From positions 1-64,000 of the forward strand of contig NZ_BJYT01000012.1 of assembly GCF_007991655.1 (NCBI RefSeq): DNA of 64,000 bases, given 5' to 3'. The translations under genes and the position numbers were made by a program. This document shows positions 2,253-13,887 of the stretch, piece after piece. The notes below the pieces were generated by a model. It was given only the letters and a program-made list of their open reading frames with translations. It was not told the origin of the DNA and did no database searches. Each line of letters starts with the position of its first letter. Position 1 is the stretch's first letter. The DNA comes from Segetibacter aerophilus (GTDB lineage Bacteria; Bacteroidota; Bacteroidia; Chitinophagales; Chitinophagaceae).

Positions 2253-3266
2253 CTATAAAAAAACTTTGATAAGATAGAAGATGAGGGCGGCAATGATACC
2301 ACTAATAGGTATGGTTAAGATCCACGCCCATAGAAGACTTACGGTTACACCCCACCGTACTGCAGAAAGGCGCTTCGTTGCACCGACGCCGATAATGGAA
2401 CCTGTAATGGTATGAGTGGTACTTACAGGAATTTTGAAATGCTCAGTTAGAAAAAGAGTTATTGCCCCAGCAGTTTCAGCGGCAACGCCTTCCAGTGGAG
2501 TTACTTTCGTAATACGCGTACCCATTGTTTTTACAATTTTCCAACCTCCACTCATAGTACCAACACCCATGGCTAAGAAACAAGAAAGTGGAACCCAATC
2601 AGGAATGCTTTTTAAGTCAGGAATGTAGTTGCTGGCAACCATAGCAACGCCAATAAGACCCATCACTTTTTGCGCATCATTTCCTCCGTGCCCAATACTG
2701 AACGCTGCAGACGAAACCAATTGTAATCGTTTGAACCAACGTTCGGCTCTATATGGATTCGATCTTTTAAATAGTTGAACAATAATGACGGTAATAAAAA
2801 AAGCGATAACCATACCTATTAGCGGAGCAGCAACTATAAATGAAATAGTAGGGATAACCTTACTTGCATTTACGACACTGAAAGTGTGATAATGCGCCAC
2901 AGCAGCTCCTATGAGACCACCAATTAGCGCGTGTGATGAACTTGAAGGAATACCGAACCACCATGTAATAAGGTTCCAAATGATCGCCGATAGTAGTCCG
3001 GCCAGAATTACATACAAAGCCAGCGGATCCCCTTTTTGAATGGAAACGCTCTTTGCTATAGTATCTGCTATTCCAAAACCACCAATAACATATTTCGAAA
3101 TAAAGAAAGCTGAAAAGTTGAATAACGCCGCCCACAAAACGGCCTGGAAAGGAGTAAGAACTTTTGTTGATACGATCGTAGCTATGCTATTTGCCGAATC
3201 GTGAAAGCCGTTGATATAATCGAATATAAAAGCAAAAATGATGATAATGACCAGCAAAGAAATCAT
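2253..3266 (-). CDS. Inorganic phosphate transporter, PiT family
   Basis: This inner-membrane symporter takes up inorganic phosphate. It has about ten hydrophobic segments and the duplicated PiT signature: GFHDSANSIATIVSTKVL near the N-terminus and a second copy, GHGGNDAQKVMG, in the middle. The later PVSTTHTITGSIIG segment is also typical. The 337-aa length matches short bacterial PiT proteins. It lies 30 bp downstream of the DUF47 gene on the same strand, a conserved pairing in which the DUF47 protein is thought to modulate the transporter. Together they form a two-gene operon reading away from the TonB receptor region. Confidence 0.93.
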   Translation of the reverse strand: MISLLVIIIIFAFIFDYINGFHDSANSIATIVSTKVLTPFQAVLWAALFNFSAFFISKYVIGGFGIADTIAKSVSIQKGDPLALYVILAGLLSAIIWNLITWWFGIPSSSSHALIGGLIGAAVAHYHTFSVVNASKVIPTISFIVAAPLIGMVIAFFITVIIVQLFKRSNPYRAERWFKRLQLVSSAAFSIGHGGNDAQKVMGLIGVAMVASNYIPDLKSIPDWVPLSCFLAMGVGTMSGGWKIVKTMGTRITKVTPLEGVAAETAGAITLFLTEHFKIPVSTTHTITGSIIGVGATKRLSAVRWGVTVSLLWAWILTIPISGIIAALIFYLIKVFL

Positions 3267-3296
3267 ACGGGAAGTTTGAAGTAATGTAACTGGTGA

Positions 3297-3944
3297 TTAA
3301 GCGTATTTTACAATAATAGACTCAATCACATTAGCAGCATCCTCACACTTATCTGTCGCAAGTTCCAGCACCTGGTAAATCTCTCTTCGTTTGATCACTT
3401 CCTTAAAATCGTTCTCCTGGTTGAAAAGCTTTTCAATACTTAAATCAAAAATATCATCAGCCTGGTTCTCGATATCATTAACTCTTACCAGTGCTTCCGT
3501 TATTTTTCTAAGATTTTTCATGTTGCGGAGTTCTACTACGGCGCTTTGTACATGTATGGTACCTTGTTCAATCAACTCAACCATTTTCTGTATACCCGGA
3601 TCGTTTGGATTAACCCTGTAAAAAATAATCTTCTTTGCAGAAGAATAAATATAGTCTGCAATGTCATCTAATGCAGAGGCCAATGTATGAATGTCTTCCC
3701 TGTCAAAAGGCGTGATGAAGTTGCGCCCCAATTCAGTAAATAGTTTGTGAGTATGGTCGTCATTTAGATGCTCCAGGTCTTCGAGCTTGCTCGAGAGGGA
3801 AGCTCTTTTATCAAAGTCAGGTTCATTAACCAGTTGCTTTAATACTCCACCCATGGTGCGAACCGTTACAGCAACCTCTTCAAACAAATTGTAGAAGATG
3901 GTATTTTTTGGCATGAACAGCTTACCGATAGAATTTAATCCCAT
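3297..3944 (-). CDS. DUF47 / PhoU-like phosphate transport regulator
   Basis: This is a mostly helical soluble protein of the DUF47 family (distantly PhoU-like), the usual partner of PiT transporters. Features seen are an amphipathic helix bundle with the YNLFEEVA start, the LEHLNDDHTHKLF segment and a DREDIHTLASALDDIADYI segment of acidic metal-binding type. I chose the start at 3944 (MGLNSIGKLF) because family members begin this way; an in-frame ATG at 3962 would add six residues. It is the first gene of the PiT operon. A weak 11-bp-period TAAYR array lies 50-85 bp upstream, which may mean phosphate control of this operon as well, but that is inference. Confidence 0.9.
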   Translation of the reverse strand: MGLNSIGKLFMPKNTIFYNLFEEVAVTVRTMGGVLKQLVNEPDFDKRASLSSKLEDLEHLNDDHTHKLFTELGRNFITPFDREDIHTLASALDDIADYIYSSAKKIIFYRVNPNDPGIQKMVELIEQGTIHVQSAVVELRNMKNLRKITEALVRVNDIENQADDIFDLSIEKLFNQENDFKEVIKRREIYQVLELATDKCEDAANVIESIIVKYA

Positions 3945-4119: not shown

Positions 4120-4177
4120 AAATTATTTTATTGCAGCTTTCAACCTACAACTTCAGATACTTCTATTAATACTGCGA

Positions 4178-4226
4178 TAACATTTAAGTAACAGTAGGAT
4201 AATGTTGAGGTAACAGTACCATAACA
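4178..4226 (+). promoter_or_regulatory. Pho-box-like operator, five TAACA units at 11-bp spacing
   Basis: TAACA occurs at 4178, 4189, 4211 and 4222, and a one-unit variant TAATG at 4200: five units at an exact 11-bp period. PhoB/PhoP-family regulators bind direct repeats with this period (for example TTAACA-type repeats in Bacillus). The array ends 10 bp before a TAnnTTTG promoter element, where an activator would contact RNA polymerase, and the controlled gene lies in a phosphate-themed block. That a PhoB-like protein binds here is inference; no such regulator is encoded in the window. Confidence 0.65.
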
Positions 4227-4235
4227 TCGCCCTGA

Positions 4236-4243
4236 TACTTTTG
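4236..4243 (+). promoter_or_regulatory. Promoter -7 element of the TonB receptor gene
   Basis: TACTTTTG matches the Bacteroidota -7 consensus TAnnTTTG exactly. It ends six bases before the ATG at 4249, so transcription would start at or next to the start codon and the mRNA may be leaderless. There is no obvious -33 TTTG because the Pho-box-like array occupies that place, as expected for an activator-dependent promoter. Confidence 0.6.
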
Positions 4244-4248
4244 CTACA

Positions 4249-7083
4249 ATGAAACTAACTAAAGTGAAAGTCTATATTTTCTTTTGTACAACTGCACTCA
4301 CACTTTTCTCTTACTCACTATTAGCTCAAGCCGCGTCTAAGATCAGTGGTAAAATATTTAACCTTAAAAACGATCCTCTTTCAGGTGCGTCTGTCACCAT
4401 TGAAGGTTTATCAACCGGAACATCTACAGATGTAGAAGGCAGTTTTGTGTTAACTGTCGCTTCTTCTAAAACTGTAACCCTTAAAGTATCTGCTGTAGGC
4501 TATAAGGAAAAGACTGTTGCAGACATAATTGTGGCGTCCGGTAAAACCGAAGAGCTGAATATTGTTTTAGAAGAAGCAAGTAAAAAACTTGAAAATGTGG
4601 TAGTCAAATCTTCAGGAGCAAGAAGAGAATCTGTGAATGCATTAATCGCATATCAGAAAAACACAAGCACTGTTGCACAGGTAATTTCTGCTGAAGCCAT
4701 CAGAAGATCGCCGGACAAAAACACAGGGGAGATACTAAAGAGAATACCGGGAACGTCTATACAGGAAGGTAAATATCTTGTTGTAAGAGGATTGAGCGAT
4801 CGCTATAACCAAGCGATGTTAAACGGAGTTTTATTAAGCAGCACTGAGCCCGACAGAAAGACTTTCTCATTTGATATTTTTCCTGCAGCAATGATTGATA
4901 ATATGATTATCAATAAGTCGTTTATCCCCGAACTAAGCGGCGAGTGGGCCGGGGGTTTGGTACAGGTTAATACTAAAGATGTTCCTTCAACCAATTTTCT
5001 AAATGTTCAAATAGGTACAGGTTTCAATACGCAAACAATAGGTAAAGACTTTTATACTTATCGTGGAGGAAAACTCGATTGGCTCGGAATTGATGATGGC
5101 GCAAGAGGTTTGCCAACAGGCCTTCCAACTAAATCTCGATTCAGTGACCTGGGTTCTACCAAAGCACAGCAAAATGCTTTTGGAAGAGAATTCGAAAATA
5201 TTTGGTCCGCTAACAAGAATTCTACAAATATTATCCCTGTTCTAAACAAGTCTTTTCAACTGAGTGGCGGGCTGAATAAGAGGCTGTCTACTAACAACAA
5301 ATTAGGGGCAATATTTGCAATTACGTATAATCAACAAAACAGGAGAACCGAGTTTCAAAATACACTCTACTCTTTTCAGAACAATGTTGCCAGTGTAAAT
5401 TTTGACTACAATAATAATAAGTATAGCCAGGATGTTTTGTGGGGAGCTTTAGGAAATGTTACCCTGCAATTGGGAGCTAATCATAAGATCTCATTTAAGA
5501 ACCTCGCCAATATAAACTCGACAGATTATGTAACTCACAGAACAGGTAAAGACTTCGAGTTTAATTCCTCTTTGGGCGAGAATATTAGGGCGACAGAGTT
5601 AGCCCTTAAATCAAATACATTTTTTAATACCCAGTTATCGGGCGATCATAATTTTACAACCTTGCAATCGAAATTGCACTGGTACGGCAGCTTCAATATT
5701 CTCGATCAATACATTCCTGACCAGCGCCGTTTGCAATACAACCAGAACCCGGAAGTTACCAACACCCCTTATGTTGCATTGATTGCAACTTCCAAAACTT
5801 CGCAGAAATCGGGAAGCAGATATTATGGTTTTTTGAACGACTATATTTATAATACCGGCGCTGATGTGGCTACATCTTTTAAAATGTTTGATTTGAACCA
5901 GACAGTAAAGGCTGGTTATTTCTTCCAGGTAAAAGACAGGCTGTTTGACTCAAGACCATTTGCCATTTACATTCCGGCTGGCGAGAACCCGGCTCTGCAA
6001 ACCCTTCCCGCAGAAACGATCTTTAACGCAGAGAATTTCGGAAACGGGGAAGATAATAAGTTCGCGTTTAATGAACTTGCAGGCGACAGGTTCAGGTATG
6101 TTGCCAATACAATTCTTAATGCCGGCTTCCTGCAGTTTGATAACCAATTCTCGGATAAACTAAGAGCTACGTGGGGTGTGAGGGTCGAAGATTATGACCA
6201 GGTAATTGGTAGCCTAAAGCAAAGTGATCCAAGACATTTACACACACGTACAACTGATCTTCTTCCAGGGTTTAACCTGACTTATAAAGTAACCAATAGC
6301 GCCAATATTCGTTTGTCCGGTTCACAGACTGTCATCCGTCCTGAGTTTAGGGAACTGAGTGATTTTCAGTTTTACGATTTCGAACTAGGCGCAACGGTAG
6401 CAGGATATAGAAACCTGGTTCGCACAAAAGTGACCAACGCAGATTTGAGATATGAACTATATCCAAGAGCAGGGGAACTTTTCACGGTAGGTGTGTTTTA
6501 TAAGTATTTTAAAAATCCTATTGAATCTTATTTTAATGCTGTTGCCGGCGGAGGTAGTTCTTATAACTTCCTGAATGCTGATAAAGCAAAAGGTTTCGGT
6601 GCAGAATTGGAATTGAGAAAGAAATTAGACTTTACTGAAGCACTGCGCAACTTTACTTTTCAAACCAATCTTTCTTACATATACAATAGGGTAGAAAGCC
6701 AGGCTGCACAAATTAAGCGGCCAATGCAAGGACAAAGTCCCTATGTGTTCAATGCTTCACTGCAATATGACATTGAGAAATTGGGATTGAACACTACACT
6801 TCTTTATAATCAAATTGGTGATAGAATTTTATATGTCGGCGGCGACAACACTCCGCCAATTTGGGAAGCTTCACGTCCTTTAATTGACTTTCAGATAGCT
6901 AAGAAAATCATGAAAAATAAAGGCGAACTAAAGCTGAACGCTTCTGATATCTTAAACCAGGCGACCAACTATTACGTCGACCTTAACCAAAACAGCACAT
7001 ACGATAAAGGTCAGGATGCTTTAGCCATCAGAAGAAAATTCGGTACAAATGTTAGCTTTTCATTTGCCTATAATACACGGTAG
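4249..7083 (+). CDS. TonB-dependent outer membrane receptor with carboxypeptidase-regulatory-like N-domain
   Basis: This is a ligand-gated outer-membrane channel of 944 aa. Residues 1-28 form a signal peptide ending LLAQA. Residues ~32-115 form the CarboxypepD_reg-like beta-sandwich (ISGKIFNLKNDPLSGASV). Then comes a plug domain with RIPGTSIQEGKYLVVRGLSD, followed by a 22-stranded-type barrel ending in FSFAYNTR. The substrate cannot be read from the sequence. Context points to phosphate or an organophosphate: PiT/DUF47 genes are divergent, a Pho-box-like array precedes it, and ppk1 and a secreted phosphoesterase follow. The gene 128 bp downstream encodes a surface lipoprotein that may be its partner. 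Family call firm; substrate is inference. Confidence 0.9.
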   Translation: MKLTKVKVYIFFCTTALTLFSYSLLAQAASKISGKIFNLKNDPLSGASVTIEGLSTGTSTDVEGSFVLTVASSKTVTLKVSAVGYKEKTVADIIVASGKTEELNIVLEEASKKLENVVVKSSGARRESVNALIAYQKNTSTVAQVISAEAIRRSPDKNTGEILKRIPGTSIQEGKYLVVRGLSDRYNQAMLNGVLLSSTEPDRKTFSFDIFPAAMIDNMIINKSFIPELSGEWAGGLVQVNTKDVPSTNFLNVQIGTGFNTQTIGKDFYTYRGGKLDWLGIDDGARGLPTGLPTKSRFSDLGSTKAQQNAFGREFENIWSANKNSTNIIPVLNKSFQLSGGLNKRLSTNNKLGAIFAITYNQQNRRTEFQNTLYSFQNNVASVNFDYNNNKYSQDVLWGALGNVTLQLGANHKISFKNLANINSTDYVTHRTGKDFEFNSSLGENIRATELALKSNTFFNTQLSGDHNFTTLQSKLHWYGSFNILDQYIPDQRRLQYNQNPEVTNTPYVALIATSKTSQKSGSRYYGFLNDYIYNTGADVATSFKMFDLNQTVKAGYFFQVKDRLFDSRPFAIYIPAGENPALQTLPAETIFNAENFGNGEDNKFAFNELAGDRFRYVANTILNAGFLQFDNQFSDKLRATWGVRVEDYDQVIGSLKQSDPRHLHTRTTDLLPGFNLTYKVTNSANIRLSGSQTVIRPEFRELSDFQFYDFELGATVAGYRNLVRTKVTNADLRYELYPRAGELFTVGVFYKYFKNPIESYFNAVAGGGSSYNFLNADKAKGFGAELELRKKLDFTEALRNFTFQTNLSYIYNRVESQAAQIKRPMQGQSPYVFNASLQYDIEKLGLNTTLLYNQIGDRILYVGGDNTPPIWEASRPLIDFQIAKKIMKNKGELKLNASDILNQATNYYVDLNQNSTYDKGQDALAIRRKFGTNVSFSFAYNTR

Positions 7084-7211: not shown

Positions 7212-8621
7212 ATGAAAAAGTTGTTCATCCTTTTTATAGCAGCGGGCGTTGCAATAAGCGGTTGCCGTAAAATAGAGGTAGACGGACCAACGACCGTTAT
7301 CACTGATCCTACCACCACCAACGGCAACGAAAATGTTGTTCTTGAAGGTAGAATTTCAGCAAACAGAACATTGAAAGCAGCGTACACCTACAAGCTTCGT
7401 GGACTTGTATATGTAACAAATGGGGCAATCTTAACTATTGAACCAGGTACTAAAATAGTGGGTGAAACCGGCAAAAACGGCGGACTGATTATAACAAGAA
7501 GCTCAAAAGTAATTGCAGACGGTACTGCTGATAAACCAATCGTGTTTACATCGGAAGCAGCCACACCACAACGCGGAGACTGGGCGGGTTTGGTAGTACT
7601 TGGAAACGCTCCGACAAACGCATCGTTTAATGGCGTGCAAGGTGTAGGCGAGATTGAAGGAGGTATCAATAATAGTGACGGTCTCGGTCTGTATGGCACG
7701 CCTGCTACACAACAGCAAAATCCGGCGGATAACAGTGGTATTTTAAGGTATGTAAGAATTGAATATGCAGGTTATGCATTCTTGCCTGATAAAGAAATTA
7801 ACGGACTAACCTTAGGTGGAGTCGGTAACCAGACCGTGATCGACTACGTGCAGGTTTCTTATGCTAATGATGATTCTTTTGAATGGTTTGGTGGAACCGT
7901 TAACTGTAAACACCTCATTTCTTTCCGTACGTTAGATGATGATTTTGATACTGACAACGGCTTTGCAGGTAAAGTTCAGTTCGGCATTGCTTTAAGAGAC
8001 TCGGCTATTGCAGACATCTCAAAAAGCGAAGCTTTCGAAAGCGATAATGACGCAAATGGAAGCGTGTTATTCCCGCAGACATCGGCAGTATTTAGCAACA
8101 TGACAGTACTCGGCCCAAAAGCTACTTCGTCTTCAAGAGGTAATAGTTTGTTTCTAGCAGGTGCCCAGATTCGCAGAAATTCTTCCATTTCTATTTTCAA
8201 TTCAATCATTGCAGGATGGCCGCAGGGTTTAATCATCGACGCCTCTAAAGGTGTGCCTACAGATTTGAATATTACCTCGGCGACACCTTTGCTGCTTATG
8301 CAAAATAATATTATTGCGGGTTGCGCTCAACCGCTGGTATACGCTGCAAGCTCAACTGCCGCAACAGGAGCTACTACGGCCTCTATTGCAAGCTGGTTTA
8401 ATACCGCTGCCTATTCAAACACCATCTTAACTAACAATGAGGAAGCAGGTTTAACAGCCCCTTTTAATTACGCTTCGCCTGATTTTAATCCCACAGCAAA
8501 TTCTGTCGCTGTAACGGGTGCAGTGTACACAAATTCGAAGCTTGCAGGATTAGCGCCCGTAAATTATAAAGGTGCTTGCGGTCCGGCCGATAGCTGGTGG
8601 AAGGGATGGACGAAATACTAA
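7212..8621 (+). CDS. Surface lipoprotein with beta-helix-like repeats
   Basis: A 469-aa lipoprotein. The signal sequence has a clear lipobox, ISGC, with the acylated Cys at residue 19. The mature part is rich in short strands and Asn/Gly turns (IEPGTKIVGE, GLIITRSSKVIADG, DYVQVSYANDDSFEWFGG), which suggests a right-handed parallel beta-helix. I recognise it as a conserved Bacteroidota type found beside TonB receptors; it has no well-defined activity. Its position directly after the receptor gene, with no terminator between, suggests co-expression and a role in capturing or presenting the receptor's substrate at the cell surface. Given the neighbours, that substrate may contain phosphate. The function is not established. 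Confidence 0.8.
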   Translation: MKKLFILFIAAGVAISGCRKIEVDGPTTVITDPTTTNGNENVVLEGRISANRTLKAAYTYKLRGLVYVTNGAILTIEPGTKIVGETGKNGGLIITRSSKVIADGTADKPIVFTSEAATPQRGDWAGLVVLGNAPTNASFNGVQGVGEIEGGINNSDGLGLYGTPATQQQNPADNSGILRYVRIEYAGYAFLPDKEINGLTLGGVGNQTVIDYVQVSYANDDSFEWFGGTVNCKHLISFRTLDDDFDTDNGFAGKVQFGIALRDSAIADISKSEAFESDNDANGSVLFPQTSAVFSNMTVLGPKATSSSRGNSLFLAGAQIRRNSSISIFNSIIAGWPQGLIIDASKGVPTDLNITSATPLLLMQNNIIAGCAQPLVYAASSTAATGATTASIASWFNTAAYSNTILTNNEEAGLTAPFNYASPDFNPTANSVAVTGAVYTNSKLAGLAPVNYKGACGPADSWWKGWTKY

Positions 8622-11175: not shown

Positions 11176-13887
11176 ATGATAACTGCTTCTAAATATTTAT
11201 TTCTACTCTTCTTAATTGCGCTTACGTTAGAAGCGCCCGCTCAAAAGCTGCTTAGGGTTTTGACAGTGCCGGGTAAGGATGCGTTTACAAATATTAATAA
11301 AAATGGAAAAACTGTTTTACCGAGTGGCAGGCATGTTACCCCTGCCGGTCAAACTATTCAAATAACTCATGACCCTTTCGGCATGGCCGTTTCTCCTGAC
11401 GGAACCAAAACAGTAACGCTACACAACGGAGTTATTACAATCATCAACAACAGCACATTAAACAACACCCGCGTTCCTTCGTATGATAAGAAAATTGTTT
11501 CACCTTTTTCGAATGGATCTTTTTTAGGCGTTGCGTTTGCACCTGATTCTAAAACAGTTTATCTAAGTGGCGGCGACAACGGTGCTGTGCTTGTATATGA
11601 CGTAGAAAAATTTCAGCGGGTCGATTCGATTTCTCTGAATGGAAGCATAGCAGGCGTCGAATATGATGACAGCTTCACATCTGATCTTTTGTTAGACGAT
11701 GAAAGTAAAGAACTGTTCGTGCTTGACCGGGGCAATTTTCGATTAGTTCGAATTAACATTGAAACAAAGAAAATCACGGCTTCTATAAAAACCGGTCGCC
11801 AACCTTTTGGACTAGCAATTAGCCCTGATCGTAAAACTGCTTTTGTCGCCAATGTGGGTGTCTATGATTATCCTTTACTTACGGGACTAACACCTAAAAA
11901 CAAAAACAGTTTAGCCTTGCCTTTCCATCCTTATGCCGATAATAGTAAGGAAGCAATCGAAGGGTATGAATACAGAGGGAAAAAAGTTCCCGGTGTAGGA
12001 AGCCCACTAGCCCCTGAAGCTATGAGTGTTTATACGATCAATTTGGCAACAAACAAAGTGATTGACAGATTTAAACCCGGCCACCAGGTAGGTCAAATGG
12101 TTGAGGGTGCAGAAGTGGTTGGAGGAGCAAGCCCAAATTCAATAGCTGTTGGAAGCAGGTATGCCTATGTAAGCAACGCGACAAACGATAACATTTCTGT
12201 AATCGATTATCGTAACCACAAAATTGTTGGCCATATTCCCATTAAAGTAAATCCGCTGATTGATCACTACCGGGGGTTATTGCCTTTTGGAGTATGTTTA
12301 AGCAAAGATGAAAAAACGTTGTATGTAGCATTGTTGGGCTTTAACGCGGTTGCTGTTATTGATGTTGAAAAGAGAGTGACAACAGGGTTAATACCTACGG
12401 GATGGGGACCAACGCGGGTTCAATTAAGTAAGGATGATAAGGATTTGTATGTAATTACTTGTCGCGGATATGGCGCCGGTCCAAACGGAGGTAAAGACTT
12501 TGTTGAGCCCATACAAGGAACTTATATCGGCGATATACAACTAGCAACATTTCACAAAATACCTGTACCTAACGTTAGCCAGTTAAAGGCCTATACAAAA
12601 CAGTCGGTTGAAAATACATTTGTGCAAGTGCAGGTAAAAGACGATGTGAAAAACCCTGTTCCTTTATTGCCCGGCTTAAGAACGAGCCCAATTAAACACA
12701 TCGTTTACATTACCAAAGAAAACAGGACTTACGATGAAATTATGGGGCAGCTAACAACCGGCAGGGGCGACTCTACTTTGGCTCGTTTTGGAGTGCACGT
12801 AAACATTAGCGATACAAGTGGAGATTTAAAAAACATGGATGTTTCCCCCAATCATTTAAAAGTCGCTAAAGAGTTTGCTTTCGCTGATAATTTTTATTGC
12901 GATAGTGACGCGTCAATTCACGGTCATCATTGGATGATGGGCGTGATACCAAATGAGTGGGTTGAAACAAATTCAAGCGTGGACAAAAGGGCAAAAATAT
13001 TTTCGAAAGCTTCAGGCAGAAGATTTCCCGGATCAACGGGAAGTATGGATCCGGAAGACTATGCAGAACGTGGTGGCTTGTGGGAGGCATTGGAAAGAAA
13101 GAAAGTTTCTTTTTACAATTTTGGTGAAGCCAATGAAACAGCACACGTGCGGGAGGAGTGGATGGATACAGCTACGGGTGCTGCTCACTCTGTAATGGTC
13201 CCAATGCAAAAGGCTTTGTGGAGCAGAACTAGTCATGATTATGCCGGTTATAATACCAACATTCCAGACCAGTTCAGAATGGAACAGTTTGAAAGAAATT
13301 TTACGAAGATGTGGCTAAAAGGCAAAAATAAAATGCCGCAATTAATAACCATGCAGGTCCCCAACGATCATACAGCTAGCCCTCGTCCTGCTGATGGCTA
13401 TCCTTATCGTCACTCGTTTGTTGCTGACAACGATCTTGCAGTCGGCCGAATTTTACATTTTCTTTCGCGCACGCCTTACTGGAAAAACATGCTTGTTATT
13501 ATCACAGAAGACGATCCGCAGGGTGGGGTAGATCATTTGGATGCGCACAGAAGTATTCTCATGATGGCCGGTCCTTATGTGAAGCGCGGTTATACATCGC
13601 ATACCCATGCGAACTTTGGATCGATCCTAAAAACGATCTATAATATTTTGAATGTTCCTTACGTAAATCAGTACGATGCTACTGCGTCTAACTTACAGGA
13701 CTTTTTCACTGGTAAACCTAACTATACGCCTTACACTTTAGTCATGCCCTCGAAAGAAGTATTTGACCCAACGAATGCGATGAAACGTTATAACCGGGAT
13801 ATCGATTGGCGCAAAATTATTAAAGGTCCCGAAATGGATGATGAAGATGACCAGCGTAAAGACCATTATGACAGCAAAAAACCTTAA
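11176..13887 (+). CDS. Secreted YncE-type beta-propeller / phosphoesterase fusion
   Basis: A 903-aa exported protein with signal peptide (cut likely after EAPAQ, residue ~23). Residues ~60-470 form a YncE-like beta-propeller with repeated FGLAISPDRKTAFVAN-type blades. Residues ~500-880 belong to the phosphoesterase family that includes phospholipase C and acid phosphatases: KENRTYDEIMGQL with the acceptor Thr, then DSDASIHGHHWMMG, VPNDHTASPRP, ITEDDPQGGVDHLDAHRS and SHTHANFGSI supply the metal ligands. It probably releases phosphate from organic esters in the periplasm or outside the cell. The exact substrate is unknown. It has no terminator before the following minus-strand TA-like pair and closes the phosphate block. 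Confidence 0.88.
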   Translation: MITASKYLFLLFLIALTLEAPAQKLLRVLTVPGKDAFTNINKNGKTVLPSGRHVTPAGQTIQITHDPFGMAVSPDGTKTVTLHNGVITIINNSTLNNTRVPSYDKKIVSPFSNGSFLGVAFAPDSKTVYLSGGDNGAVLVYDVEKFQRVDSISLNGSIAGVEYDDSFTSDLLLDDESKELFVLDRGNFRLVRINIETKKITASIKTGRQPFGLAISPDRKTAFVANVGVYDYPLLTGLTPKNKNSLALPFHPYADNSKEAIEGYEYRGKKVPGVGSPLAPEAMSVYTINLATNKVIDRFKPGHQVGQMVEGAEVVGGASPNSIAVGSRYAYVSNATNDNISVIDYRNHKIVGHIPIKVNPLIDHYRGLLPFGVCLSKDEKTLYVALLGFNAVAVIDVEKRVTTGLIPTGWGPTRVQLSKDDKDLYVITCRGYGAGPNGGKDFVEPIQGTYIGDIQLATFHKIPVPNVSQLKAYTKQSVENTFVQVQVKDDVKNPVPLLPGLRTSPIKHIVYITKENRTYDEIMGQLTTGRGDSTLARFGVHVNISDTSGDLKNMDVSPNHLKVAKEFAFADNFYCDSDASIHGHHWMMGVIPNEWVETNSSVDKRAKIFSKASGRRFPGSTGSMDPEDYAERGGLWEALERKKVSFYNFGEANETAHVREEWMDTATGAAHSVMVPMQKALWSRTSHDYAGYNTNIPDQFRMEQFERNFTKMWLKGKNKMPQLITMQVPNDHTASPRPADGYPYRHSFVADNDLAVGRILHFLSRTPYWKNMLVIITEDDPQGGVDHLDAHRSILMMAGPYVKRGYTSHTHANFGSILKTIYNILNVPYVNQYDATASNLQDFFTGKPNYTPYTLVMPSKEVFDPTNAMKRYNRDIDWRKIIKGPEMDDEDDQRKDHYDSKKP

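Follow-up and report, generated by a model that had tools for sequence, protein, structure and literature searches.

In the Pho box of Escherichia coli, 11-bp repeats of a CTGTCAT half-site run head to tail in place of the upstream promoter hexamer, the basic box having two half-sites, and such boxes lie before pst and phoB. The Bacillus subtilis PhoP box has TTAACA-like repeats at 11-bp spacing, with a half-site core nearly identical to that reported here, in an unrelated phylum and with another type of promoter. E. coli PhoB binds as dimers, head to tail, on tandem 11-bp half-sites, and the Pho-box consensus differs among species (PMC4415409). For the Bacteroidota, published work already shows that PhoB can bind a pst promoter and that the response to phosphate is large. 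Bacteroides fragilis PhoB bound the pstC promoter in an EMSA with a 512-bp fragment; the operator motif is not given in the portion of that study available to us (PMC3547664). In Flavobacterium johnsoniae the PUSIV cluster (Fjoh_0543-0546) groups phoR, phoB, a TonB receptor and a lipoprotein, and on Pi depletion the receptor and the lipoprotein, FII, rose by log2 8.0 and 9.9 (about 250- to 960-fold); an Oar-like receptor, Fjoh_3841 (PF13620), was likewise induced, and plant-associated Bacteroidetes were reported to be without Pst, the accessible part of the paper giving no operator sequence for PUSIV (PMC8115612). The Riemerella anatipestifer PhoP motif, TTTAACA, comes from another member of the Bacteroidota and has the same core half-site as the array below; in what is accessible of that report we found neither an array of 11-bp period nor a promoter geometry or a phosphate regulon (PMC9603813).

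The window, the whole 64-kb stretch of Segetibacter aerophilus DNA that was analysed, has an array of such units on its forward strand. The five units at an exact 11-bp period described in the original prediction could be read directly from the sequence, namely TAACA at 4178-4182, 4189-4193, 4211-4215 and 4222-4226, and TAATG at 4200-4204; a further unit on the same grid, TAATA at 4167-4171, had been missed, bringing the total to six. The -7 element TACTTTTG, of the TAnnTTTG type, follows at 4236-4243, 9 bp beyond the final TAACA and 14 bp from it when measured start to start. Because in Flavobacterium psychrophilum TAnnTTTG occupies positions -12 to -5 (PMC9723704), transcription should start, by prediction, at about 4248. 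Elsewhere in the window there was no place with four units and at most two mismatches at any period between 6 and 23 bp, and no array of four units with two mismatches or five units with three arose in windows simulated by a Markov model. A model derived from relatives and run on both strands gave the array 37.3 and the runner-up in the window 14.0.

Orthologous promoters were drawn from 61 relatives and from a set of named genomes in which Chitinophagaceae predominate, alongside Pedobacter, Sphingobacterium and Chryseobacterium. Seventy-five of them were aligned by the -7 element alone with the array ignored, a procedure that avoids the bias of best-fit positioning. The stack had T-A-A peaks at -14, -25, -36, -47, -58 and -69, which correspond in turn to the units at 4222, 4211, 4200, 4189, 4178 and 4167, and TAnTTTTGC was conserved at the -7 element. 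The array was expected to define a Pho-box consensus for this group, and the 75 promoters supplied one, the unit TAAYATTNNNG. A four-unit score was high in these promoters at offsets 14 and 25 only and at period 11 only, and this fixed phase upholds the earlier proposal that the array takes the place of the -33 element before TAnnTTTG. The trained model found a site in 75 of 78 named orthologues versus 3 in reversed sequence, a count that is partly circular because the model was trained on those same promoters; the tests on pst loci and whole genomes are not circular. At two Chryseobacterium loci (L207, L216) receptor orthologues about 51% identical to that of the window were without the array.

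The model trained on receptor promoters only was then applied to 16 fetched pst loci. PstB occurred in 13 of the 61 relatives and was absent from the remainder and from the S. aerophilus genome itself, which has PhoB and PhoR without Pst. Sites scoring 29.6-38.4 lay directly before porin-pstSCAB-phoU operons in five genomes (G007, of the same genus, G015, G024, G028 and G036). In G038 a weaker site, scoring 19.8, stood before pstS. At a score of at least 18 there were 8 sites in the 16 loci versus none in reversed sequence. Two of the 16 loci were interrupted by contig ends, and since most of the others had no strong site, the link between array and pst is strong and not universal. A single contig from another class (L304) carried an array before pstSCAB-phoU and then an array before the receptor and lipoprotein genes. 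In several relatives phoB itself was preceded by an array; none was found upstream of the S. aerophilus phoB.

Unselected scans extended this association. A pattern search of the S. aerophilus genome (5.9 Mb) for three units plus the -7 element with at most two mismatches gave two matches versus none in the reversed control, and looser patterns (two units plus -7 with two mismatches, or three units with three mismatches) gave no excess over the control beyond these two good sites. The first pattern matched 89 times in the 61 relatives versus 19 in reversed sequence; with at most one mismatch, the 198 genomes scanned across the phylum had 56 matches versus 6, and a pattern with one extra fixed base matched 54 times versus once in 149 genomes of the family. 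The check proposed with the original prediction, enrichment of phosphate genes behind genome-wide hits, was thus run across genomes and came out in its favor: phosphate-linked classes lay downstream at 39 of 52 newly fetched matched loci, and of 109 background ORFs 5 belonged to them (Fisher p about 1e-20). These classes were relatives of the window receptor (19 loci), its lipoprotein (5), the pst porin (5), pstS (4), an Oar-like receptor (3), a PlcP-like phosphoesterase (2) and PhoB (1). Because some of the receptor matches are distant (~30% identity), most weight goes to pst, PhoB, the lipoprotein and the PlcP-like genes.

Both clear sites in the S. aerophilus genome precede TonB receptors. 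The second (G000:C4:188838-188881; L145 about 2328-2382) has four units and the same TACTTTTG element, and stands before the gene of a 1,057-residue Oar-like TonB receptor; one relative (G005, C55:14740) has a match before the same gene. As far as the available F. johnsoniae data go, Fjoh_3841 is of this gene type (PMC8115612), any phosphate link of the S. aerophilus Oar-like receptor being putative.

A candidate regulator is encoded at about 154959-155645 of contig C6 (G000:C6), a different contig from that of the receptor, with a kinase gene adjoining. This PhoB-like protein was 55% identical to the PhoB encoded beside pst-phoU in G038, as against 34-37% for its identity to the two other best candidate regulators of its own genome. 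It scored below the curated cut-off of NCBIfam TIGR02154 (230.7 versus 296.2 bits), a cut-off reached in none of the 41 genomes searched. The distance between the receptor gene and the best PhoB gene was no more than about 12 kb in many relatives. A same-genus relative (L301) had all of these in one locus: PiT-DUF47, array-receptor-lipoprotein, array-PlcP-glycosyltransferase and PhoRB.

Taken as a sequence-based reading, there is a high probability that the array is a Pho box through which PhoB activates the receptor gene and that of its partner lipoprotein at low phosphate. The Pho-box identity first suggested for the array gains from its presence before pst operons and phoB and from the phosphate-linked genes behind most matched loci. 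A Pho box has two or more 11-bp direct repeats, and here there are six, four to six being usual at these promoters; it replaces the distal promoter element, and here TAnnTTTG begins 14 bp after the start of the last unit; it precedes core Pho genes, and here the motif stands before porin-pst operons in five relatives, before pstS in other classes and before phoB, if not before every pst locus. The core TAAYATT differs from the E. coli consensus CTGTCAT, a mismatch that is not decisive because the consensus varies among species (PMC4415409), and the promoter is of the Bacteroidota TAnnTTTG type, unlike those of E. coli Pho boxes.

The array is very probably a docking site for PhoB, and we infer that PhoB binds there, that it activates the receptor gene instead of repressing it, and that the gene products work in transport. 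Its operator would consist of six 11-bp half-sites with the consensus TAAYATTNNNG, recognized by the PhoB of a PhoBR pair. Under phosphate starvation, PhoB in its phosphorylated form would occupy these half-sites head to tail on one face of the DNA, the six of them accommodating three dimers, and the final half-site would stand in for the -33 element just upstream of TAnnTTTG. Bound PhoB might then contact the sigma factor and bring in RNA polymerase that carries the primary sigma factor; the invariant spacing between array and -7 element fits an activator that must touch polymerase. The TonB receptor and the lipoprotein that is its partner would thereby be switched on and take up a phosphorus source.

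The principal alternative is that the array is the operator of another OmpR-family regulator, ArcA-like or akin to the Riemerella PhoP, with the phosphate link secondary. OmpR-family operators do have similar layouts, and in the accessible part of the R. anatipestifer report DAP-seq of PhoP yielded TTTAACA, likened to the E. coli ArcA motif, and a regulon not made up mainly of phosphate genes (PMC9603813). Such a regulator is improbable, given that the array occurs before pst operons, before phoB and before PlcP-like genes and that many relatives have their best PhoB gene beside the receptor; the Riemerella protein may itself be a relative of PhoB. Less probable still, PhoB might bind the array and yet serve to repress or fine-tune the receptor instead of activating it. 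PhoB/PhoP regulators can act as repressors elsewhere, and the final half-site is close to the -7 element, but the location in place of the -33 element, the single helix face and the invariant phase are those of an activator, and the F. johnsoniae counterparts were strongly induced in the data available from that study (PMC8115612).

Lone units are short and frequent, so that an effect of chance or composition, such as tandem duplication in an AT-rich promoter, might be entertained; we give it almost no credence. No array appeared in simulated windows or at other periods, the difference between 75 of the 78 named orthologous promoters and three in reversed sequence is large, and the reversed controls of the own-genome, phylum and family scans point the same way. 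A chance or compositional origin is refuted by these comparative data.

The gene facing the array encodes a TonB-dependent receptor, as originally proposed and in agreement with its Pfam domains (PF13715, PF07715, PF00593 and PF14905). Placed at 4264-7083 on the forward strand, its ORF reaches back to an ATG at 4249, just 5 nt past the -7 element. In relatives the first in-frame start codon was mostly 15-22 nt past this element, and 8 nt or less in 6 of 82; GTG 4264 is therefore probably the receptor start rather than ATG 4249, judging from this clustering. With transcription starting near 4248, ATG 4249 would give a leaderless message. The probable second gene of the unit (7212-8621, forward strand) encodes a lipoprotein with no Pfam match, and a lipoprotein gene followed the receptor in 53 of 54 named loci long enough to be assessed. 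The window shares with PUSIV, as described in the portion of that paper at hand, a TonB receptor with PF07715, PF13715 and PF14905 followed by a lipoprotein, a match made by domains and context, and by position and context the window lipoprotein is the counterpart of FII; PUSIV has phoBR within the cluster, whereas the S. aerophilus phoBR is on contig C6 (PMC8115612). Linkage of phoBR to the receptor was found in 19 of the 54 named loci.

On the reverse strand, divergent from the receptor, are genes for a DUF47/PhoU_div protein (3297-3944; PF01865) and a PiT phosphate transporter (2253-3266; PF01384). The view that these two, ppk1 and a secreted phosphoesterase (11176-13887) form a Pho-controlled block together with the receptor is not supported: scanning the window with the receptor model revealed no array before ppk1, PiT-DUF47 or the phosphoesterase, and since they have no array of their own they are not demonstrably co-regulated. 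The phosphoesterase is left out of the regulon account because none of the 54 loci conserves it beside the receptor. The divergent DUF47-PiT pair was present at 20 of the 54 named loci, mostly in Pst-less lineages. In such a lineage the Pho system may, rather doubtfully, have been rewired, PhoBR being kept with the receptor-lipoprotein unit as its main target and a PhoU-like DUF47 protein with PiT replacing PstSCAB-PhoU in sensing toward PhoR. The pair in the window (2253-3944) could be such a sensor arm for PhoR.

We found no Bacteroidota Pho-box consensus in the literature, most subscription journals lying outside the search. With TAAYATTNNNG every 11 bp and the last unit 14 bp before TAnnTTTG, the phosphate regulon becomes predictable from sequence across much of the phylum, and the array can be used as a regulon tag because in many Bacteroidota phosphate genes stand behind such a site. 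Through the consensus, TonB receptors and lipoproteins that are as yet uncharacterised become linked to the uptake of phosphorus, and its geometry illustrates how an activator may act at the unusual promoter of this phylum.

One relative had about seven arrays within 14 kb (L144; G016:C11:12000-31500), preceding two receptors, a lipoprotein, a small acidic protein and a PlcP-like metallophosphoesterase. In two other loci (L301, 7338-9265; L151, 9038-10961) a PlcP-like phosphoesterase gene adjoins that of a glycosyltransferase (PF13528), with an array upstream in L301; the pair is likely an operon for remodelling lipids to phosphate-free forms.
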